A DNA stretch of 39,469 nt, taken from an uncultured Eubacteriales bacterium. GTDB lineage: Bacteria > Bacillota > Clostridia > Lachnospirales > Lachnospiraceae. The notes beneath the pieces were generated by a model. It had not been told where the DNA came from. It made no database searches and saw nothing but the letters and a program-made list of their open reading frames with translations. The translations under genes and the position numbers were made by a program. Positions 1,125 through 21,804 of this stretch are shown piece after piece (positions within the stretch are counted from its first letter, which is position 1; each line of letters opens with the position of its first letter). The DNA lies in NCBI GenBank assembly GCA_949292785.1, contig CASFBK010000020.1:1-39469 (forward strand), read 5' to 3'.

Positions 1125-1347
1125 AAAGGTAGTCTATACTTCGAGACAGTCAGACATAGACAGGCTGATGGAGGGAAGATATACACCAGGCAGATGACTT
1201 TATGCTGTCATTTATTTTGACGTCTACAGGAGGAACGGCTGCACAGGAGTTTGTGAGTATATAAGAGCGTTAAATATAGAGTAATAAAGAAAATATTATT
1301 TAGAAGAAAACAGAACAAAAATTGATAATAAGGAAAGAAAAAGATAA
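1125..1347 (+). other. Intergenic remnant between toxin-immunity pair and membrane genes
   Basis: No full gene is present. A short open stretch around 1205-1264 reads S-F-I-L-T-S-T-G-G-T-A-A-Q-E-F-V-S-I then stop. Its end, a V-S-I encoded by GTGAGTAT, resembles the V-S-I of the toxin gene at 19-26. It may be debris from an earlier toxin-module exchange. This is a weak reading. Confidence 0.3.
1251..1280 (+). promoter_or_regulatory. Weak candidate sigma-A promoter for the small membrane genes
   Basis: TTGTGA at 1251-1256 and TATAGA at 1275-1280 are separated by 18 bases, about 65 bases before the ATG at 1348. Both boxes deviate from consensus. Confidence 0.3.
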
Positions 1348-1803
1348 ATGAAAGAGAACGTAATTAATAATAATGAAAATATGCTGGAAAAAGTAATGAA
1401 TAAAAAAATATCTGAAAAACTGCAAGCATGGAATTGGTTTGCAATCCTATCATCTGTGATATTGTTTTTGCTTATGTGCGTAAAAGGGGAGCTTTATACT
1501 GATTTATGGGAAGATGAGTTATACAAAAGTCTGGGAATTATTGTTCCTCTTTCCGTACTATTACCCATTGTGGAAAAAATTGTTTTGGCGGCAGGAAAAA
1601 TAGAACGAGTGAAAATTCCGGTAGAAGTAATTCAATTTTTAGCAGGGGCATGTGTTTTTGCGGGCTATATTATCGTTCGAGTAAATGCAGGTGGACATGA
1701 AACCGATGCGGAGTTTTATGCAAGACGTTTTCTTGCGATATGGTTCATGCTGGACTTTATAGGTGCCTTTTTTATGCATCGTGCGATAAGAGAGGAAATT
1801 TAA
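1348..1803 (+). CDS. Small multi-pass membrane protein of unknown function
   Basis: The 151-residue product has a polar N-terminus of about 28 residues and then four likely membrane segments, at about 30-46, 63-82, 92-110 and 128-144. It starts at ATG with an AAGGAAAG stretch 9 bases before it. I recognise no family. It lies 16 bases before the next membrane gene, so the three small membrane genes probably form one operon. Because they sit directly behind a toxin-immunity pair, they could be membrane immunity proteins or cargo of the same accessory region. That is inference from context only. Confidence 0.6.
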   Translation: MKENVINNNENMLEKVMNKKISEKLQAWNWFAILSSVILFLLMCVKGELYTDLWEDELYKSLGIIVPLSVLLPIVEKIVLAAGKIERVKIPVEVIQFLAGACVFAGYIIVRVNAGGHETDAEFYARRFLAIWFMLDFIGAFFMHRAIREEI

Positions 1804-1819
1804 AGGAGGGAGACGAGTT

Positions 1820-2278
1820 ATGAAAAAACAGTTTATAAAAAGTCAGGTAAACAAAAATTTTATATTATCATTAACATTAGTAGCCATATTGGTAGTGATG
1901 GTAGTTGGGGAAGTGTGGTTAATTTGCGGTCTGGCTTCTGATGAAGGATTTATGTGGATGACTTTTGGAATAGGATTTTTAGGGATAGTGATGCTGGTAA
2001 TTGCAACAGTTATGACCGCAACGCTGGCATGCTTCATTTTTATTTTTGCGTTGATTGCAAAATTGATTTATAAAAATACGTCAGAGAAAATAACAGCATA
2101 CAGGGTACTAATGGGCTTATCGTATGCAGGACAGATTTGTCTATTGTTTTATAGCTTTCATGGAATATTGGCGGGAGGTTGGGGAAGTGTTATAAGCGTG
2201 GCAATCAGTGCATACATATTTTGGGCAATATTTATGGGAATGCGAGGAACGTATACGGAAAGGCTCAAAGAATCATGA
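1820..2278 (+). CDS. Small membrane protein, paralogue of the next gene
   Basis: The 152-residue product has a basic N-terminus (M-K-K-Q) and about four hydrophobic segments at residues 14-36, 44-80, 96-110 and 120-140. AAAGGAGGGAGACGAGTT precedes the ATG, a strong ribosome site. It shares with the next product V-N-K-N-F-I-L near the start, a central F-A-L-I-A-(K/R)-L-I-Y-K stretch, and a C-terminal G-G-W-G-S...S-A-Y-I-F-W-A...R-G-T-Y-T block. They are clearly tandem duplicates. Function is unknown. Confidence 0.65.
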   Translation: MKKQFIKSQVNKNFILSLTLVAILVVMVVGEVWLICGLASDEGFMWMTFGIGFLGIVMLVIATVMTATLACFIFIFALIAKLIYKNTSEKITAYRVLMGLSYAGQICLLFYSFHGILAGGWGSVISVAISAYIFWAIFMGMRGTYTERLKES

Positions 2279-2313
2279 AGATAAAACCAAATAAGAAAGG
2301 GATAAGAGGAATG

Positions 2314-2850
2314 ATGAAAAAACAAGTAAACAAAAACTTTATTCTAATGTTAACATTAGTGGCAATGTTACTTCTGGTAATTATATTAGGAATAACAATG
2401 GTATATGTATTGAATTCAGGAATGAATGGGCTTCAAAGTGATATAAGCAGAATGCGGAGCAAGGACGAAATAGGAGATGTAGAAGGATATGGAATTATCG
2501 TTAATAGCATAGGATACGGACTGGCGGGAATGGGAAAGCTGTTGATACTTCTGTTTTTGATTGTAATTCCAACAGCGCTTGCATCTTTTATTTTTGTTTT
2601 TGCGCTGATAGCAAGACTGATTTATAAGGATACTCCGGGAAGAATATTAACGTACAGAATTTTAATGGGATTTTCCTTTGCAGGGCAGATTATGATGTTT
2701 CTTACGGGCTTGTTTATGTTGAAAAGCGGAGGATGGGGAAGCCTGATTAGCATGGTAGTCAGCGCATACATATTTTGGGCATTATTTATAGGAATAAGAG
2801 GAACTTATACCAATCGGATAAAAAGCAATGGGAATGAAGGGAGCAACTAG
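2314..2850 (+). CDS. Small membrane protein, tandem paralogue
   Basis: The start is ATG at 2314, or the adjacent ATG at 2311. AAGAGG lies just upstream, and the protein then begins M-K-K-Q-V-N-K-N-F-I-L like its paralogue. The open frame extends back to 2179, but that part overlaps the previous gene and is not homologous. The product is about 178 residues. Compared with the upstream copy it has an extra soluble insertion near residues 33-60 that contains a polar S-R-M-R-S-K-D-E segment, between the first and second membrane segments. It ends with a charged tail. Function is unknown. Confidence 0.65.
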   Translation: MKKQVNKNFILMLTLVAMLLLVIILGITMVYVLNSGMNGLQSDISRMRSKDEIGDVEGYGIIVNSIGYGLAGMGKLLILLFLIVIPTALASFIFVFALIARLIYKDTPGRILTYRILMGFSFAGQIMMFLTGLFMLKSGGWGSLISMVVSAYIFWALFIGIRGTYTNRIKSNGNEGSN

Positions 2851-2934
2851 AGCGAGAAGTCGTGGTAATAAGTGACAATGGAACCGTTATGATTGAGCCG
2901 CATAGAAATGATTGAATGGAATTTAGATAATAGA

Positions 2935-2961
2935 TAAAAAATCTCCCTTTTTCAGGGAGAT
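2935..2961 (-). terminator. Rho-independent terminator of the PsiE-like gene
   Basis: On the minus strand an 8-bp stem, ATCTCCCT with AGGGAGAT (2941-2961), is followed by TTTTTTATC. The TGA stop of the gene lies inside the hairpin. Confidence 0.85.
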
Positions 2962-3401
2962 GATACGTCTTTATCAGAGTCCTTTGTTTCCATATTACCA
3001 AACATATTTCCGCTCCCTTTCTTAAAAGGAAAATTGAGATATTTTTTTATGGCAAAAATGAGACCAATACTGATAATGGTAATAAGATTTTCATAAACTG
3101 TCGTATGCTCAATAATCATATGCCGGGCAACCAGAAACATCAGCACTTCTAGTACAGTATCTTCGCTTGGCTGACAAAGCATCTTTAAAAATTCAATTCC
3201 AATCAGAATATTAAAAATAGAACCAACAAAGGTTAAAAAGGCATCGTTTGAAAAACGTGTATGCCAGAAGTCTATAAAAGCCTCTCCCAGAGAAAAACTG
3301 GCAATTACAATGGCGACAAGCACGACAAACGCCATCAGTAGTTCCAGAATGTTACAGGAGTGATAAAGGGTATTTCGTACCTTACTTAATGCTTTTTTCA
3401 A
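2952..3401 (-). CDS. PsiE-like small membrane protein (TTG start)
   Basis: The 149-residue product has four hydrophobic segments, at about residues 17-46, 53-70, 82-98 and 103-118. The order and the motif L-E-L-L-M-A-F-V-V-L-V-A-I near residue 19 resemble the PsiE family of phosphate-starvation-inducible membrane proteins, whose function is poorly known. The only sensible start is TTG at 3401, with GAGG seven bases before it. The gene begins 26 bases after the SRP RNA 3' end, and I see no terminator between them, so it may be read from the SRP RNA promoter. The C-terminal tail is polar and ends S-S-P. Confidence 0.65.
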   Translation of the reverse strand: MKKALSKVRNTLYHSCNILELLMAFVVLVAIVIASFSLGEAFIDFWHTRFSNDAFLTFVGSIFNILIGIEFLKMLCQPSEDTVLEVLMFLVARHMIIEHTTVYENLITIISIGLIFAIKKYLNFPFKKGSGNMFGNMETKDSDKDVSSP

Positions 3402-15283: not shown

Positions 15284-16705
15284 ATGATTAAATTTGGAAC
15301 CGGCGGCTGGAGAGCCGTAATAGGAGACGATTTTACAAAACAAAATATACAGATACTGGCAAAAGCCCTTGCTAATAAAATGAAAAGCGAAGGCGTAACA
15401 GAAAAAGGGATTGTTATGGGATATGACCGCCGTTTTCTTGCAAAGGAAGCAATGCAGTGGGCAGCTATGGTATTTGCAAAAGAGGGCATCAAGGCATATC
15501 TGATTAACAAATCCTCACCAACACCATTGATAATGTTCTATGTCATGAAACATGAGTTTCCATATGGCATGATGGTAACTGCAAGTCATAATCCGGCAAT
15601 TTATAATGGTATTAAAGTATTTACTGCTGGTGGACGTGATGCAGATGAGATTCAGACCAAAGACATAGAAGACTATATATCTGAAATAAAACCATCCTCC
15701 GTAGAAGAGATGGATTACGCCGAAGGCGTGAAAGCTGGACTGATAGAAGAAATCTATCCACTGAATGAGTACCTTGATAATATCATTGCGTCTGTCAACA
15801 TGGAAGCCATTCGCCAGGCGGGATTGAAGATTGCATTAGATCCCCTGTATGGTGTAAGCGAAACCTCCCTGAAAACTATTTTGCTTACCGCCCGCTGCGA
15901 AGTGGAAACCATTCATGACAGACATGATACTCTATTCGGTGGAAAGCTTCCGGCTCCAACAGCCTCCACGCTGCGTACATTGCAGACCTATGTGGTAGAG
16001 CACAAGTGTGACATTGGAATTGCTACGGATGGTGATGCTGACCGTATCGGTTTGATTGATGATAAGGGAAATTTCCTCCATCCGAATGACATTTTAGTTT
16101 TATTATATTACTATCTGGTAAAACACAAGGGCTGGCACGGTTCTGTTGTTCGTAATATTGCAACAACGCATATGCTGGATAAGGTGGCAGAACGTTTTGG
16201 CGAAAAGTGCTATGAAGTTCCGGTTGGCTTTAAGTATATATCTGCTAAAATGCAGGAGACCAATGCTATCATAGGAGGAGAGTCTTCCGGTGGTCTGACC
16301 GTTCGCGGACACATCAATGGAAAAGATGGAATCTATGCAGCAGCTCTTTTAATCGAGATGATTGCAGTAACAGGAAAGAAGCTGTCCTCTATTATGGATG
16401 AGATTCGTAAGGAATGTGGCAGCATCTATATGGAAGAAAGAGATTATAAATTTACTCATGAGAAAAAGGCGGCAATGCAGAAACTTCTCATGGAAGAAAA
16501 ACAGATACCGGAATTACCGGAAGAAATTGACCATATTTCTTATCTGGATGGAAGTAAAGTATATTTCAAAAATGGTGGATGGGTAATCGCAAGATTTTCA
16601 GGAACCGAACCGTTGCTTCGTATTTTCTGCGAAATGCCAAATATAGAAAGTGCCAAAGAAATATGTGGAATTTATGAAAAGTTCCTTGGACTTGAAGAAA
16701 TATAA
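15284..16705 (+). CDS. Phosphohexosamine (GlcNAc-1-P) mutase, alpha-D-phosphohexomutase family
   Basis: The 473-residue protein has the family's four domains. The phosphoserine loop is T-A-S-H-N-P (about residues 98-103), the metal loop D-G-D-A-D-R is near 248-253, the sugar-specificity loop is G-G-E-S-S-G-G near 334, and the phosphate loop R-F-S-G-T-E-P-L-L-R lies near the C-terminus. It should convert the sugar-1-phosphate released by the GH94 enzyme to the 6-phosphate. By context that is GlcNAc-1-P to GlcNAc-6-P, which feeds NagA. A plain phosphoglucomutase is the alternative. It starts 16 bases after chbP with AAAGGAGG before the ATG, and a terminator follows. Confidence 0.88.
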   Translation: MIKFGTGGWRAVIGDDFTKQNIQILAKALANKMKSEGVTEKGIVMGYDRRFLAKEAMQWAAMVFAKEGIKAYLINKSSPTPLIMFYVMKHEFPYGMMVTASHNPAIYNGIKVFTAGGRDADEIQTKDIEDYISEIKPSSVEEMDYAEGVKAGLIEEIYPLNEYLDNIIASVNMEAIRQAGLKIALDPLYGVSETSLKTILLTARCEVETIHDRHDTLFGGKLPAPTASTLRTLQTYVVEHKCDIGIATDGDADRIGLIDDKGNFLHPNDILVLLYYYLVKHKGWHGSVVRNIATTHMLDKVAERFGEKCYEVPVGFKYISAKMQETNAIIGGESSGGLTVRGHINGKDGIYAAALLIEMIAVTGKKLSSIMDEIRKECGSIYMEERDYKFTHEKKAAMQKLLMEEKQIPELPEEIDHISYLDGSKVYFKNGGWVIARFSGTEPLLRIFCEMPNIESAKEICGIYEKFLGLEEI

Positions 16706-16730
16706 TTATTTCTTAAGATAATTTATGAAA

Positions 16731-16768
16731 GCGCCTGTGGGCTTAAGAGCCTGCGGGCGTTTTATATA
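16731..16768 (+). terminator. Rho-independent terminator of the chbP-mutase operon
   Basis: CGCCTGTGGGC, loop TTAAGA, GCCTGCGGGCG: an 11-bp stem with three G-U pairs, followed by TTTTATAT. Confidence 0.85.
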
Positions 16769-16814
16769 TCATAAAACAAAAGTCGAAAGGATTTCTTTTT
16801 TTCATGAAAACGCA

Positions 16815-16843
16815 TGGACAAATAAAGGAGAAAAAGATATAAT
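16815..16843 (+). promoter_or_regulatory. Promoter of the HTH-TPR regulator
   Basis: TGGACA (16815-16820), 17 bases, TATAAT (16838-16843); the start codon is 34 bases after it. Confidence 0.75.
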
Positions 16844-16876
16844 AAACGATTATTATAAAAAAGAGGAGAAAAGCAA

Positions 16877-17785
16877 ATGGTGTACGAAATTGGAAGTTTT
16901 ATACGGGATTTGAGGATAGAGCGCGGTTATTCCCAAGAAGAACTTTGCTATGGGATTTGTTCAACCGGAAATTTGTCAAAGATAGAAAATGGAGTGCGTA
17001 TGCCCAGTCGAAAGACCATAGAAGCTTTGATGCAGCGGCTTGGCTGCGAAGATGTATTCTTACAGTTTTCCAGTAGAGAAGAAATGCACCAGGAGCAGCT
17101 TTGCGAAGAGATTGTAATGAGATTGTCGGCAAAAGATTTTGACGGATTAGAGGCTCCCTTAAAAGAATTTGAGGCGTCCATTTCAGAAGGGGATATATTG
17201 AATTCACAATATTGCCGGTTTACAAAAGCAATGATAAATCAGGCAAAGGGAGTTTCGCGGGAAGAAGTTATCCGGGAATTAGAAGAAGCGTTAAAAATGA
17301 CAAAACCAGGATACAGGAAAGAGGAATTCAATCTGAATGGGTTGTTGACTTATAACGAAATTGTGATTCTTATTAATATTGCCAATACATACGCCAAAAA
17401 AGATAATGAAAAAGCCATCGAGATTTTATCCGGATTAAAACAATATATGGATACACATATCTTAGATGGGCAGGAACGGATAAAAAAGTATCAGGTGATT
17501 ATTTTTAATCTATCGGATATTATGGTGGACGAAAAAAGATATGATGAAGCTATAGAGCTATGTGATTTGGGGATTGAAGATAGTAAAGTAAATAACCGCC
17601 TGCGCCTGTTTCCATACTTTCTTGCCAATAAAGGGTTTGCCTTATTAGGGAAAGGAGAGGAGCAACGGGCGCAGGAACAGTTGAAAAAAGCTTATCATAT
17701 GTGGGATGCTATGGATAATGAAAAAGAATGTCAAAGACTCATTCAATACTCGAAAGAAAAGTGGAATCTTATTGACCTTCTATAG
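16877..17785 (+). CDS. XRE-type HTH regulator with TPR domain (RRNPP-like)
   Basis: The 302-residue protein has an N-terminal XRE helix-turn-helix (about 6-60: I-R-D-L-R-I-E-R-G-Y-S-Q-E-E-L...L-S-K-I-E-N-G-V-R-M-P-S). An all-helical array of TPR-like repeats fills the rest (for example Y-D-E-A-I-E-L-C-D-L-G-I near 218 and A-L-L-G-K-G-E-E-Q-R-A near 258). The same layout and length are seen in Rgg, PlcR, ComR and related cytosolic receptors of secreted peptides (RRNPP family). GAGGAG precedes the ATG. Its 3' end overlaps by 17 bases a convergent small secreted-peptide gene, a strong hint of a cognate pair. It could instead regulate the adjacent chitobiose genes. Confidence 0.82.
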   Translation: MVYEIGSFIRDLRIERGYSQEELCYGICSTGNLSKIENGVRMPSRKTIEALMQRLGCEDVFLQFSSREEMHQEQLCEEIVMRLSAKDFDGLEAPLKEFEASISEGDILNSQYCRFTKAMINQAKGVSREEVIRELEEALKMTKPGYRKEEFNLNGLLTYNEIVILINIANTYAKKDNEKAIEILSGLKQYMDTHILDGQERIKKYQVIIFNLSDIMVDEKRYDEAIELCDLGIEDSKVNNRLRLFPYFLANKGFALLGKGEEQRAQEQLKKAYHMWDAMDNEKECQRLIQYSKEKWNLIDLL

Positions 17786-17918
17786 CGAGATAAAATCCAT
17801 AGGTAGAAGCAGCTATGTTTCTGGCAGAGGAAGAAGCATTTGATATCTTTCCTACTGGCGTTAATAAAGTAGAAGAGATTAATAAGGTTGCACATAGACT
17901 GGTAAAAAGTTTTTTCAT
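17769..17918 (-). CDS. 49-residue secreted peptide precursor, candidate signalling peptide
   Basis: The start ATG at 17918 has TAGGAGGG 7-8 bases upstream, one of the best ribosome sites in the window. The product has a classic export signal: M-K-K, then a hydrophobic core (L-F-T-S-L-C-A-T-L-L-I-S-S-T-L-L) and a probable cleavage near residues 20-28 (T-P-V-G-K-I-S-N-A). The tail is 21-29 residues, S-S-S-A-R-N-I-A-A-S-T-Y-G-F-Y-L-A-I-E-G-Q. Size and layout match PapR- and Phr-type precursors whose C-terminal 5-10 residues become the signal. It runs convergent to the RRNPP-like regulator and overlaps its end. It has no cysteine pair or double-glycine leader. No clear promoter is seen, only imperfect TTGCA(T/A)-type repeats at about 17955-17980. 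Confidence 0.7.
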   Translation of the reverse strand: MKKLFTSLCATLLISSTLLTPVGKISNASSSARNIAASTYGFYLAIEGQ

Positions 17919-17992
17919 TATAAAACCCTCCTATAATATGTTTTTAATATGTAATTATTGCAAGGTAAGAATAATGCAAACACTGGAAAAAA

Positions 17993-18051
17993 ACCATGAA
18001 CTTTGAGGAAAATTTGAAAAAAAAGAAAAAATTTTCCTCAAAGTTCATGGT
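17993..18051. repeat. Perfect 23-bp inverted repeat with 13-base A-rich loop
   Basis: The left arm (17993-18015, beginning ACCATGAACTTTGAGG) and right arm (18029-18051) are exact reverse complements; the loop is GAAAAAAAAGAAA. It lies 75 bases upstream of the peptide gene and ahead of the structured-RNA promoter. It has no T run on either side, so it does not look like an ordinary terminator. It could be an operator or a transcript-stabilising element. Confidence 0.9.
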
Positions 18052-18066
18052 AAGGAAAGCGCAGAA

Positions 18067-18075
18067 TGATAAAAT
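18067..18075 (+). promoter_or_regulatory. Extended -10 promoter for the structured RNA
   Basis: TGATAAAAT (TG, one base, TAAAAT at 18070-18075) fits an extended -10 element; the -35 region is weak. The predicted start at about 18080-18083 coincides with the first helix of the RNA. Confidence 0.45.
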
Positions 18076-18078
18076 GAT

Positions 18079-18190
18079 AGCTGGAGTACGGATATCTCGG
18101 GGGGCGGAATTACAATTCCGAAAAGAGAATATCAGCTCTAGCAAAAGTGTCGGAAGACCCTGCGGATTTTCGCGGGGTCTTCTTAATTTT
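18079..18190 (+). ncRNA. Candidate structured RNA (unrecognised riboswitch-like leader or small RNA)
   Basis: Three nested helices can be drawn. P1 is GCTGGAG (18080-18086) with CTCTAGC (18136-18142). P2 is GATATCTC (18091-18098) with GAG-A-ATATC (18125-18133). P3 is CGGAAT, loop TACA, ATTCCG (18105-18120). A run of six G (18099-18104) and an AAAA (18121-18124) form a purine-rich internal loop. A strong terminator follows after ten bases. A compact folded domain followed by a terminator is typical of riboswitches, and the sensor kinase gene lies downstream. I do not recognise the class. It may also be a stand-alone RNA, because another promoter precedes the kinase. Confidence 0.5.
18153..18190 (+). 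terminator. Terminator ending the structured RNA
   Basis: GAAGACCCTGCG (18153-18164), loop GATTTT, CGCGGGGTCTTC (18171-18182): a 12-bp stem with one G-U pair, then TTAATTTT. Confidence 0.85.
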
Positions 18191-18202
18191 AATAATAAAA
18201 TA

Positions 18203-18211
18203 TGATATAAT
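18203..18211 (+). promoter_or_regulatory. Extended -10 promoter for the sensor kinase
   Basis: TGATATAAT at 18203-18211 gives an extended -10 with perfect TATAAT; the -35 is poor (TTAATT). It overlaps the tail of the preceding terminator and leaves a leader of about 100 bases. Confidence 0.6.
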
Positions 18212-18315
18212 GAGCGTAAGTGAGCCAACATGCGTGCATGATGGAAGAACAGCGAAATTATTGGGTGATGGAATCACGTTATCAGCAAAATAGTATAAAA
18301 TTGGGAGAAAAAAGG

Positions 18316-20211
18316 ATGAAAGTACTTAAGAAACAGGAAAAAAAAGGACCATATTCACTCAAACGGCGTTTGATGTTGTTTATCATTGGGTGCTGGGCAG
18401 CCCCGATTATTGCGTTTTTCAGTTTTATTACATTATCTTATCGAGAAGGAATTATAGTAAAGACAGAACGGCTGATTGAAGACCAGTTGGCAAATGCAGC
18501 ATCTTTTATTTCTGTCCGTCTGGAAGATATTATAACACTTTGTCAAAGTCCTTCCTATGAAGGGGGCTGGGAACAGGCGTGGAAAAAGTATAACAACGGC
18601 GAAATGGATCGTTCACACTATCTTGCCACTATGAATACCAGTTTAAAGGGGAAATTTTATCTGGATGACAGATTTTTGTTGTATGCTTTTTACGAAGCAG
18701 ATGTGGAGTGGCCTGTCTGCTGTTCCTCAAGAGCCGGAGTTACACAGAGTGAATATGTAGATATGGTTGGTGATAAGGTAAAAGAATGGATAGAAGGCGG
18801 TTTGGATTATATTCATCTTGAGGTTGTTGACGGACATATTTTTCTGATGCGAAATCTTTACAGTACCATGGAATATAAGTATTTTGGAACACTGGTGGTA
18901 GAACTGAATGAACAGAAATTATTAATGGATATTCCGAATGAACAACGGGAGAACATGGTCATTTGTGTGAACGATTCGGAAGGACATATTAATTATGCGA
19001 AAGTATCAGAAAGAACCGGACAGGAGAAGCTGCTGCAAAAGCTTTTGAATCACTATACAGGATATTCCGGTAGAAACATTCAAAGAGAGAATAATAGTGC
19101 CTATAATGGATATCTGTATCAGGAAAAGTTTGATAATTATCATCTTGGGGTTGCGTATCTGGCAGAACACAAAGAAATTTATTCTAATTTATATGAGCTG
19201 TACGATATGGTATTGGTAATGCTGTTGATTTTCTTACCATTACTCCTTTATGTCAGATATTTCCTGAAAAAGCAGATTCAGGAGCCGGTGAAACATCTTA
19301 CGATAGCATCTAGGAAGATGGAAGCCGGGAATATTGGAATAAAAGTAGGGGGCGGAGAAATGCCCAATGCAGAGTTTAACTACTTAAAAGAATCCTTTGA
19401 CAGTATGTCAACACAGGTAAAAGAGCTTTTTGATTATATTTATGATGAAAAGCTGGCACGGAGAGATGCTCAGATTCTGGCGCTTCAGGCACAGATTAAC
19501 CCTCATTTTTTGAATAATACGCTGGAAATGATGAACTGGCAGGCACGTATGAGTGGGGATGTAGTAGTATCTAAAATGATTGAATCACTTGGAACTGTGC
19601 TGGATTATCGGATGAACCGGGCAAATGTAAAAGAAATTTATCTGCAAGAAGAATTAAGGTGCACGGATGCGTATTTTTATATTATGTCCATGCGGTTCGG
19701 GCAACGTCTCAAGGTGGAAAAAGAGATTGATGAAGAACTTCTCTATATTAATGTTCCGCCGTTGATTCTGCAGCCGTTGGTAGAAAATGCCATAGTACAT
19801 GGAGTAGAAAATGCAAAAAGCGGAAGTATTGGGGTTCATGTATACCATGATGAAGAACAGGTATATTTAAAGGTAACCAATACCGGAAAGAAATTAAGCA
19901 AAGAAGAACAGGAAAGAATACAGGCAATTCTTTCGGGAGACACGGCAAAAATCTCAAAAGGAAAGGGAAAGCATACCTCTATCGGAATCAGAAATGTAAA
20001 TGAGCGTATTAAGCTGGTGTATGGAGAGGAATATGGTCTTTCTATCTGTCAGGAAGAAAGTGGAATTACCGTATCTACCATAGTGCTGCCTTATCAGCAG
20101 AATGAGAATGAGGTGGATAATGAACGAAAAGAAGAGGAGAGAAATAAGAGAGAACGCCAGAAAGTGGAATCAGAGCTTCGAAATATGCACCAAAATAATA
20201 AAAATACATAA
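18316..20211 (+). CDS. YesM-type sensor histidine kinase
   Basis: The 631-residue membrane kinase has TM1 at about 17-40, an extracellular sensing domain of about 250 residues, TM2 at about 297-318, HAMP, and a His_kinase domain with Q-I-N-P-H-F-L-N-N (phosphorylated H397). A HATPase domain follows with P-P-L-I-L-Q-P-L-V-E-N-A-I-V-H-G and G-I-G-I/S-I-G-I-R-N-V-N-E-R. ATG at 18316 is chosen because GGGAG lies 8 bases before it; an upstream GTG at 18220 would add 32 residues that block the membrane start. The charged tail of about 35 residues after the ATPase is unusual. It flanks, with the YesN-type regulator, a CUT1 ABC transporter, so it probably senses the transported sugar. Confidence 0.9.
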   Translation: MKVLKKQEKKGPYSLKRRLMLFIIGCWAAPIIAFFSFITLSYREGIIVKTERLIEDQLANAASFISVRLEDIITLCQSPSYEGGWEQAWKKYNNGEMDRSHYLATMNTSLKGKFYLDDRFLLYAFYEADVEWPVCCSSRAGVTQSEYVDMVGDKVKEWIEGGLDYIHLEVVDGHIFLMRNLYSTMEYKYFGTLVVELNEQKLLMDIPNEQRENMVICVNDSEGHINYAKVSERTGQEKLLQKLLNHYTGYSGRNIQRENNSAYNGYLYQEKFDNYHLGVAYLAEHKEIYSNLYELYDMVLVMLLIFLPLLLYVRYFLKKQIQEPVKHLTIASRKMEAGNIGIKVGGGEMPNAEFNYLKESFDSMSTQVKELFDYIYDEKLARRDAQILALQAQINPHFLNNTLEMMNWQARMSGDVVVSKMIESLGTVLDYRMNRANVKEIYLQEELRCTDAYFYIMSMRFGQRLKVEKEIDEELLYINVPPLILQPLVENAIVHGVENAKSGSIGVHVYHDEEQVYLKVTNTGKKLSKEEQERIQAILSGDTAKISKGKGKHTSIGIRNVNERIKLVYGEEYGLSICQEESGITVSTIVLPYQQNENEVDNERKEEERNKRERQKVESELRNMHQNNKNT

Positions 20212-20294
20212 TACAAAATAACCAAAGAAATAGTCAAAAATAAGAAAGAAAGGAGACTATTTACCCAAGTAAACAAGCTTTTGACAGGGCAAAA

Positions 20295-20335
20295 TTAGAC
20301 AAGGAAACGAACAAAATAAGGCAAATCTTGTCTAA
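20295..20335. promoter_or_regulatory. Candidate operator: 9-bp inverted repeat upstream of the ABC operon
   Basis: TTAGACAAG (20295-20303) and CTTGTCTAA (20327-20335) are perfect inverted copies with centres 32 bases apart, about three helical turns. They lie 60-100 bases before the -10 box of the transporter genes, a usual place for an AraC-type activator such as the YesN-like protein. Confidence 0.5.
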
Positions 20336-20372
20336 GATGGCAAGAATAAACAAATAATGTCAAGTCAGTCTA

Positions 20373-20401
20373 ATGCTTTTTGTGTAAGCTGCACGTATAA
20401 T
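20373..20401 (+). promoter_or_regulatory. Activator-type promoter of the ABC transporter operon
   Basis: A perfect TATAAT at 20396-20401 has a poor -35 (ATGCTT, 17-base spacing), consistent with activation by the flanking two-component system. The ribosome site AAAGGAGG follows about 40 bases later. Confidence 0.6.
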
Positions 20402-20454
20402 ATAGGTATAGTAAATAAAAACTTTACGGAATAAAGAAAAGGAGGATTTCAATT

Positions 20455-21804
20455 ATGAAAAACAAAGTTTTATCCGTGTTGTTAGTATCTGCTATGGCAG
20501 TAAGCATGTTAGCAGGATGTGGTGACAGCAAAGACACAGGAAGCAATGGTGATTCCGGTAAGAAGACGGAGCAGGGCGATGATGCTGGGGATGCTGGACA
20601 AAATGATGTAACATTGAAGACAGTATCCATGTTTGGAGGAACAGACCCGAACGTAGCTGCATATGAAGAAATCAATGAGCAGTTCCAGAAGGATTATCCA
20701 TACATTACGATTGAAGATAATTCTCAGACTTCTAACCAGGATTGGAAAGCAGCAGTTGCAGCAGACTTCGCAGTTGGAAATGAACCGGATGTTATCCAGT
20801 ATTTCACAGATGCAACTGCAAACACAGTATTAGCAACAGACAAGTTTGTAACATTAGACGAAATCAAAGCAGAATATCCAGATTATGCAAAGGATATTAC
20901 AGAAGTAGCATTAAAGGCAACTGCTAACCCGGATGGAGTAAACAGAGCAGTTCCTACTACCGGATACTGGGAAGGACTTTTCTGTAACAAAGATTTGTTT
21001 GACCAGTACAATGTAGCACTCCCAACAGACTGGGATTCTCTGGTAACAGCAGTTGAAACCTTTAAGGAAAATGGTATTATTCCAATCGCATGCTCCTTAA
21101 ATGCAGTACCTCACTACTGGATTGAGTACACAATGTTATATTCCGCTGGTGTAGATGAGTACCAGAGTGTTCCGGAAACCGCTCCGGAGAGCTGGGTAAA
21201 AGGTCTTGAAGTAATCAAAACCTTAAGAGATATGGGTGCATTCCCAGAAGATACTGATACAATCGATGATGCATATGCCGGACAGTTATTCAAAGATAAG
21301 AAAGCTGCTATGCAGTTAGATGGTTCCTGGTATGCAGGTGGTGTAGAAGATGCTGGTAATGGTGACACAACCGTAGTTGTAGCATTCCCAGGAGTACCGG
21401 ATCAGAAAGCTGAAGCAAACACAATCATTAGTGGTATGTCTTCCGGATTCTATATTACCAAGAAAGCTTGGGATGATCCAGACAAGAGAGATGCAGCAGT
21501 TAAGTTTGTAATGGCTCATACTTCTAAAGAAGGTATCCAGAAATATTGGGAAGCAACAGGTAAGATTCAGGTAACAGCAGCAGAGTTAGATGCTCCTTCC
21601 GACTTAAGCGTATTAGGACAGTCTGCAATGGATTTAGTTAATTCTGCAACAGCAACAGCTTTACCAACAGACGCAAGAATCGGAAGTGACCCATATAGTG
21701 TAATTACATCCTCTATGTCACAGGTTTCTGTAGGTTCTGCATCTGCTGAAGATGTATTGAATGAAGCATTAGCATTATTTAAAGAATTAGACGCACAGCA
21801 GTAA
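20455..21804 (+). CDS. ABC sugar-binding lipoprotein (CUT1, family 1)
   Basis: The 449-residue lipoprotein has lipobox L-A-G-C with lipid cysteine C22. A Gly/Asp/Ser-rich linker to about residue 45 comes before the binding domain, which starts V-T-L-K-T-V-S-M-F-G-G-T-D-P-N. Family features include the aromatic-rich binding region (for example G-Y-W-E-G-L-F near 168 and the W-Y-A-G-G segment near 290). It captures an oligosaccharide outside the membrane and delivers it to the two permeases. Given chbP and nagAB in the same region, diacetylchitobiose or an N-glycan-derived sugar is the likely ligand. AAAGGAGG precedes the ATG. It is separated from the permeases by a terminator hairpin. Confidence 0.9.
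   Translation: MKNKVLSVLLVSAMAVSMLAGCGDSKDTGSNGDSGKKTEQGDDAGDAGQNDVTLKTVSMFGGTDPNVAAYEEINEQFQKDYPYITIEDNSQTSNQDWKAAVAADFAVGNEPDVIQYFTDATANTVLATDKFVTLDEIKAEYPDYAKDITEVALKATANPDGVNRAVPTTGYWEGLFCNKDLFDQYNVALPTDWDSLVTAVETFKENGIIPIACSLNAVPHYWIEYTMLYSAGVDEYQSVPETAPESWVKGLEVIKTLRDMGAFPEDTDTIDDAYAGQLFKDKKAAMQLDGSWYAGGVEDAGNGDTTVVVAFPGVPDQKAEANTIISGMSSGFYITKKAWDDPDKRDAAVKFVMAHTSKEGIQKYWEATGKIQVTAAELDAPSDLSVLGQSAMDLVNSATATALPTDARIGSDPYSVITSSMSQVSVGSASAEDVLNEALALFKELDAQQ

Follow-up and report, generated by a model that had tools for sequence, protein, structure and literature searches.

Does the small gene that overlaps the 3' end of a regulator gene in an uncultured gut-type bacterium encode the signal to which that regulator responds? 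We addressed this question for a contig of an uncultured Eubacteriales bacterium of the Lachnospiraceae (GenBank assembly GCA_949292785.1, contig CASFBK010000020.1, positions 1 to 39,469), and we refer to this whole stretch of 39,469 nucleotides (nt) as the window. A sequence-only reading had proposed that an XRE-TPR regulator and a convergent, overlapping gene for a 49-residue secreted peptide form a quorum-sensing pair of the RRNPP type. A receptor-propeptide pair of this type is supported by the match of the regulator to PlcR and by the conservation of the peptide gene and its promoter sites. The pair itself therefore stands; unmentioned in that reading were inverted, activator-like sites, a divergent predicted small RNA, and the leaderless tails of several homologues. 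We consider the locus likely to be a PlcR-like RNPP peptide-signaling module in which the divergent small RNA would be a second target. The receptor-peptide pair is of a known type, and the previously unnoticed part here is the mirrored promoter with its predicted small RNA.

The regulator gene (16877..17785, + strand) encodes a predicted peptide receptor of 302 amino acids (aa). The HTH_3 domain scored 37.8 bits (cutoff 23), and PlcR was the best solved structure by sequence profile (E 1.8e-19, profile 1-288, full length). PlcR was also the top fold match of an AlphaFold2 (AF2) model (pLDDT 91.1), with Rgg2 lower in the fold list. Profile and predicted fold span the whole protein, an N-terminal helix-turn-helix (HTH) followed by a TPR-type peptide-binding domain, as in RNPP/RRNPP receptors. 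These results bear out the XRE-TPR assignment and place the receptor nearest to PlcR by profile and predicted fold. The gene is preceded by a promoter (16815..16843, +) with a -35 element TGGACA (16815-16820), a 17-nt spacer, and a -10 element TATAAT (16838-16843). It was the top promoter-like site of the stretch scanned in a general sigma-70 scan (11/12; 7 sites versus 5.5 expected by shuffles). Mean matches over the 13 orthologous (A-type) regulators scanned were 4.46/6 for the -35 and 5.85/6 for the -10, and the promoter looks constitutive.

The propeptide gene (17769..17918, - strand) encodes a leader and the tail STYGFYLAIEGQ; the full 49-aa translation is MKKLFTSLCATLLISSTLLTPVGKISNASSSARNIAASTYGFYLAIEGQ. 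It converges on the regulator gene with an overlap of 17 nt (17769-17785), and 8 nt ahead of its ATG lies a ribosome-binding site, AGGAGG (17927..17932, -), that matches at 6/6 positions. Its leader carries two N-terminal lysines along with a hydrophobic segment, for which the highest mean hydropathy over 12 residues is 2.07. By this hydropathy heuristic, which is not SignalP, the window holds the adjacent small precursor with an export signal and C-terminal tail that marks RNPP systems. The coordinates, sizes, and opposite-strand overlap of the sequence-only reading were all confirmed from the ORFs (open reading frames) and their translations. So was the excellent ribosome site that it described, and the export signal and short tail ending FYLAIEGQ correspond to the heuristic leader and the tail YGFYLAIEGQ. 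Pfam and NCBIfam gave no match to the window peptide.

Upstream of the peptide gene lies a perfect inverted repeat, with 23-nt arms (17993-18015 and 18029-18051) that are 100% complementary and 13 nt apart. Its unit is a 19-nt site, TTTTCCTCAAAGTTCATGG, of which each arm holds an exact copy: one (17994..18012, -; arm 17993-18015) faces the peptide gene and the other (18032..18050, +; arm 18029-18051) faces the predicted small RNA. A putative -10 element of the peptide promoter, TATTCT (17968..17973, -), lies 20 nt from its half-site and is read by analogy with other loci. The scan placed the peptide-side -10 at 20 nt in 9/10 loci (TATTCT in L002 and L003, TATACT in L004-L010); at the window its choice was CATTAT at 17 nt, and TATTCT is present there at 20 nt as well. 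On the other side, the -10 element TAAAAT of the putative small-RNA promoter (18070..18075, +) lies 19 nt from its half-site, and a -10 was found at 19-20 nt in 14/14 loci. The putative precursor promoter, judged on sequence, combines a conserved half-site with a conserved -10 spacing. At the -35 positions of the two divergent promoters the match is poor, averaging 3.14 and 2.80 of 6 against 2.47 at random positions, and the general sigma-70 scan listed neither promoter. Because the half-sites end where a -35 should be and the receptor has a good promoter of its own, the arrangement has the look of two activator-dependent promoters beside a constitutive receptor. The starts of the two half-sites are separated by anything from 19 to 126 nt (10 loci), so each unit appears to be a site in its own right.

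With the 14th base left free in the search, the half-site adjoins the A regulator exactly in 13/14 genomes and with one mismatch in the 14th, and no exact copy was found in the other 15 genomes of the genus. In the window genome (G000) there are two further half-sites, each with one mismatch: on contig C7 before a secreted chitinase gene, and on C12 where an SbcC-like gene ends. The C7 site (G000:C7:112569; L088, about 3570) precedes the gene (L088:3759-6605) for this chitinase, a protein of 948 aa that has GH18, GH19, and CBM5/12 domains. Among relatives, G026 has no further half-site up to 2 mismatches and G006 has one with 2 mismatches; we do not claim a wider regulon. We also considered CATGG, 20 nt from the TATAAT before the receptor gene, as a third half-site that would create a cascade, and dropped it because the ordinary -35 TGGACA with its 17-nt spacer explains CATGG.

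The right-hand promoter would produce a predicted small RNA of about 106 nt (18082..18189, +) with a G-run in an internal loop and a terminator-like hairpin at 18152-18183. Across loci the predicted transcript is 95-157 nt long and ends in such a hairpin, with a 12-15-pair stem in 13/13 complete loci and a clear T-run in 10. An independent terminator scan also flagged the window hairpin (14 pairs). Fold z-scores of four of the RNAs, hairpins included, ranged from -3.8 to -5.9 (window -5.74). A covariance model was built from an alignment that left out L007 (a near-copy of L006) and L012 (where the contig ends). It gave 13 strong hits (E <= 6.3e-9; window copy 5.6e-10), all beside an A regulator and in 13/14 A genomes, and no strong hit in the 15 genus genomes without an A regulator (best 0.003). 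A search of 16600-20600 against Rfam 15 listed no hit at the gathering score, and the weak hits to miRNA models were the inverted repeat itself. The RNA is kept at three loci where the peptide is lost (L011, L013, and L014). At these loci the -35 position of the RNA promoter reads TGGACG (4/6), closer to consensus than in 10 of the other 11 loci; L009 also reaches 4/6, and L012, likewise peptide-less, has 2/6. This is a hint, no more, that the RNA promoter there may be drifting to independence from the receptor.

We then asked how far the pair is conserved. A-type regulators are present in 14/29 genus genomes (window included) at 53-75% identity. The sequence-only reading had suggested looking for small opposite-strand frames at the 3' ends of regulator homologues, and a convergent small frame occurs at 10 of these 14 loci, which leaves its proposal unrefuted. 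The A1 type comprises the window, G026 (tail GFHLAIEDQ), and G006 (tail FYIAVEGD), with an MKK leader in all three. The A2 type has the tail SYFDDLIEYY (SYFDDLMEYY in L008); it is leadered in L006, L007, and L008, and in L004, L005, and L009 it is an 11-codon frame, MAYFDDLIEYY. A third type, MKSYIQHTFLALS, is found in L010. Ribosome sites are perfect in L001, L002, L003, L006, L007, and L010 and match at least 5/6 in L008. Most differences in A2 tail codons are silent, with synonymous/non-synonymous counts of 3/0 for L004/L009, 5/0 for L005/L009, 2/1 for L006/L008, and 4/2 for L004/L006. The A2 tail is kept at both a 33-nt (L006) and a 17-nt (L004) overlap with the receptor gene, so the overlap alone does not explain its conservation.

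To count such frames against a control, we required an ATG, a Shine-Dalgarno (SD) match of 5/6 or better, and a stop codon between -60 and +200 relative to the stop of the partner. By this rule 26/46 regulators of the clan have a convergent small frame, versus 19/194 other large ORFs. Two of the 26 frames look spurious (L013 and L116), and two candidates fail the SD rule (L005 and L112). Eight of the 19 control ORFs are themselves regulators of the same clan (L032, L087, L099, L100, L102, L103, L104, and L105; in L104 the frame is just the last part of a neighboring gene), and their removal leaves 11 of at most 186. The pairing of regulator and convergent frame exceeds chance.

We infer the following circuit from these features. 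The receptor would be made constitutively. The 49-residue precursor would leave the cell through the Sec pathway and be processed to a short peptide from its C terminus, around GFYLAIEGQ, which an oligopeptide permease would re-import; the genome encodes two proteins of SBP_bac_5, the family that includes OppA. Bound in the TPR superhelix, the peptide would load the receptor to bind the 19-nt sites that end at the missing -35 regions and to activate the two outward promoters, rather than repress them. The first target would be the propeptide gene itself, giving positive feedback. The second would be the predicted RNA of roughly 106 nt, through which the response would reach target mRNAs or proteins.

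A paralogous receptor, family B, shares 28-38% identity with the A type and is present in the window genome as well (G000:C11:72755). An intact convergent peptide frame is present at 11 of the 22 B loci examined; one locus has a broken frame (L098), and 10 have none. The tails are of the GFFLGDVEETF kind, and in the close pair L015/L019 the tail codons differ by 3 synonymous and 0 non-synonymous changes. B peptides are leadered in L015, L019, and L022 and leaderless in L017, L018, L020, L021, L087, L095, and L096; that of L016 is long but not hydrophobic. The B receptor of the window genome (L087:2747-3673, G000:C11) has a leaderless convergent frame, MVNANILFRPLDDVEEMF. Its operator is mixed, with one A-like and one B-like arm, and a short divergent stretch ends in a terminator-like hairpin.

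Several results weigh against a module of this kind. On the receptor side, the RNPP_C match is sub-threshold (21.7 bits versus a Pfam cutoff of 26.5), and the receptor gene is broken in two relatives: in G026 a 538-aa transposase gene (DDE_Tnp_1_6; L032:5786-7402, -) splits it while peptide, sites, and RNA are still there, and in G006 it is frame-broken. On the peptide side, 4/10 convergent A frames (L004, L005, L009, and L010) and 8/11 intact B peptides have no leader, and leaderless tails complicate the secreted-peptide reading outside the window. The peptide frame was not found at 4/14 A loci (L011, L012, L013, and L014, each with only one half-site seen) or at 10/22 B loci, and a strong match to the A2 peptide turned up nowhere else in the genus; at these A and B loci the receptor may therefore act without a peptide. 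Ribosome sites are weak in L004, L005, and L009 (either AGGGGG at a distance of 12 nt or a 3/6 match). Purifying selection is not clear in the A1 tail codons (L001/L002, 3 synonymous and 3 non-synonymous; L001/L003, 1 and 6). On the RNA side, the hairpin scan across loci returns a best hairpin by design, the T-run is weak in L001-L003, and the number of terminator-like sites in the stretch scanned (1 found versus 1.0 by shuffles) shows no excess. Finally, 12/13 covariance hits, the window copy included, were themselves part of the model, which makes the lack of hits elsewhere in the genus the informative result. A search of three genomes for targets complementary to the G-run gave sites with 3 mismatches that were not clearly above control, and this candidate was set aside.

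The leaderless tails raise an alternative: that they work within the cell that makes them, as a cell-autonomous timer and not as a signal to other cells, with the exported form of the window as the older state. Tails do persist without leaders, and L095 keeps an MGKTKK-like start and the tail without the hydrophobic core seen in L015. We examined the distribution of leaders on a receptor tree of 28 A and B regulators. The receptor alignment comprised 33 of the 46 regulators of the control count plus L101 and L102; L002, L003, L007, L026, L090, L092, L093, L096, L097, L112, L113, L116, and L121 were left out, L002 and L003 being broken receptors that were omitted from receptor alignments and trees alike. 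On this tree the three states (exported, leaderless, and none) require a minimum of 8 changes versus a shuffled mean of 13.0, and 0/200 shuffles gave a value as low. The exported state alone changes at least 4 times, and branches with good support make 2 of these changes unavoidable. EcsB, taken as a stand-in for one route of leaderless export, was not found in G000, where the B peptide has no leader; this favors the timer and counts against the signaling module. Against the timer, leaderless peptides are known that are exported and signal: the leaderless communication peptides (LCPs) of 8-9 aa work between cells, according to the available part of PMC10518010. Moreover, the window's own A gene is leadered, and the tree is unrooted. 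Loss of the leader, then of the gene, is the simpler reading of the tree, and its direction is a guess. We regard the timer as somewhat unlikely.

Instead of a regulatory RNA, the divergent transcript might be only an attenuated leader or the beginning of the operon that follows, or its promoter might be a decoy. In the window the next gene on the + strand does encode a sensor kinase, with a reading frame from about 18220 or 18313. The failure to find a target or an Rfam family at threshold fits this alternative, as do the frames of 9-31 codons inside the RNA at six of 13 loci. However, these six do not share one frame, and the other seven loci have no frame of at least 8 codons. The downstream gene also differs between loci: beyond the RNA lies a nagA-like gene on the other strand in L002 and L003, and tRNA-Ser in L004, L010, L011, and L014. 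A terminator-like hairpin at every complete locus, with the clear T-runs outside L001-L003, and the survival of the RNA after the peptide gene has gone likewise argue against it, and we think it unlikely.

A third alternative keeps both promoters and reverses the sign of control: the apo-regulator would sit on the inverted sites and shut both promoters until the peptide releases it, in the manner of PrgX or Rgg3. Paired inverted sites could support looping, and repressive RNPP members exist. Yet neither promoter has a good -35, and the sites stop where one would lie, a layout in keeping with an activator; the spacing of half-sites also varies over 19-126 nt, with a single site remaining beside the RNA in L011, L013, and L014. 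Repression is in our judgment improbable, even with the precedent of Rgg3, described as a repressor in the available part of PMC13361665. It is very improbable that the small frame encodes a secreted effector, bacteriocin-like peptide, or small toxin under its neighboring regulator: a small Sec-type peptide next to an XRE regulator can be an effector and the window peptide lacks a family match, but the receptor is a PlcR-type peptide sensor by profile and fold, the short tail in A2 and B is kept whether the leader is present or absent in a given relative, and tails differ between receptor clades, as would be expected for specificity.

Returning to the peptide-signaling module, we looked for relatives beyond the genus. 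Of 397 genomes of the family searched, 12 had a match at E <= 1e-30, including the window's own genome and one genus member; a scan of genome contigs gave 12 loci, 11 of them close, and included Eubacterium sp. 14-2, Petralouisia muris, and Lachnospiraceae bacteria 3-1 and A2. Ten further loci were read beyond the genus, and five have a convergent leadered candidate (L111, L112, L118, L121, and L123). Inverted repeats lie beside L121 and L123 (arms of 26 and 12 nt), and imperfect ones, seen by eye only, at L111 and L118. The L112 tail, AFCYILGDVRVSS, shows a match to two B tails (shuffle counts of 5 and 12 in 2000) and none to L111 (395 of 2000) or the A tails (1730 and 2000). Among 120 tail pairs, 21 were beaten by fewer than 2% of shuffles, versus about 2.4 expected. 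Nineteen of the 21 fall within A1, A2, B with L111 and L112, or the fused family described below, two of these 19 resting on an L112 ending that differs from its correct translation. None of the 21 joins an A1 tail to A2 or B, and the weak cross-family pairs are A2 with one B tail (29 of 2000) and L010 with one B tail (26 of 2000). We therefore rejected a single tail motif for all families and kept the families apart.

The fused family consists of long receptors with two HTH-TPR units per chain, the second HTH at about residue 310. Four, of 607-628 aa, have a convergent leadered-peptide frame: L099:2858-4702 (+; G000:C18), L100:3275-5161 (-; G026), L103:3727-5571 (+; G052), and L127:1831-3654 (-; G008). 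An example of their peptides is MKKTVFKSVKSIIIAAAVCAGLTCGVINAVSAPDSATSAIVATHPSFADGIC. With L133, whose SD is weak, 5 of the 11 long receptors seen have a convergent peptide frame, and none was found for L100:12105-13940, L124, L125, L126, L138, or L139. The AF2 model of L099 (pLDDT 88.2, pTM 0.87) again had PlcR as its top match. The double-unit receptors look like single-chain receptor dimers. Head-to-tail pairs of clan regulators occur at L118:1489-2415 and 2397-3344 (-), L123:575-1513 and 1495-2421 (+), and L107:70-1080 and 1144-2124 (+), with overlapping genes in L118 and L123. Such pairs are a possible forerunner of the fused receptors. At 607-628 aa the latter fall outside the 250-500 aa range of strict-class receptors in RRNPP_detector, which scanned complete genomes, as stated in the available part of PMC10075063.

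A fuller picture, which we put forward tentatively and would not yet bet on, is of a PlcR-like receptor whose main output is one dedicated small RNA, from a promoter that mirrors that of the pheromone. Within the genus the signal gene would have been repeatedly stripped of its leader and then lost, with receptor, site, and RNA surviving, and the same genome would hold a related two-HTH-TPR fused receptor with its own convergent secreted peptide. Peptide quorum sensing of the RNPP kind seems hardly described in Lachnospiraceae, a dominant gut family. If the proposed module is real, it offers (i) concrete peptides, receptors, and promoter sites for testing, and (ii) an RNPP circuit with a regulatory RNA as its effector, in the way of agr. 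A single receptor family whose signals are exported, leaderless, or lost would form a natural series, making the evolution and loss of bacterial communication testable. In the open-access literature we found no paper joining RRNPP, Lachnospiraceae, and "quorum sensing", a search that covered text outside figures and supplements, where such a cluster could be listed; among the matches listed, titles and the starts of abstracts named no such system in Lachnospiraceae.

How does this locus compare with known systems? PlcR-PapR of the Bacillus cereus group has the same receptor type by sequence profile and fold, a likeness judged on the receptor. The papR gene is co-directional with plcR and downstream of it, whereas in the window and its relatives the peptide gene is convergent and overlapping, a divergent small RNA is predicted, and the taxon is another. 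In agr, one regulator serves two divergent promoters, for the signal (RNAII) and for a regulatory RNA (RNAIII). The likeness to staphylococcal agr P2/P3 is one of layout only: the regulator here is an XRE-TPR (HTH_3) protein rather than an AgrA-type response regulator, no cyclic peptide precursor was seen, though no search aimed at AgrB or AgrD was made, and the predicted RNA is far shorter, so the locus is not a member. Qsr and QssR of Clostridium are RNPP-type clostridial systems in the available part of PMC10075063, and we liken them by description, not by sequence. RopB-LCP resembles those relatives that have leaderless frames of 11-23 aa with a conserved tail; LCP genes are divergent from ropB (PMC10518010, available part), whereas here leadered and leaderless precursors share one tail within a genus. 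The sequence-only reading had noted that convergent overlap is known for some Rgg-SHP genes, and this holds for the streptococcal group III Rgg/SHP pairs, described in the available parts of PMC3679016 as convergent and of PMC13361665 as overlapping. Those same parts mention no RNA, whereas a small RNA is predicted here. The receptor is closer to PlcR than to Rgg, and its precursor, at 49 aa and with a leader, contrasts with the 22-26 residues of the SHPs tabulated in PMC3679016.
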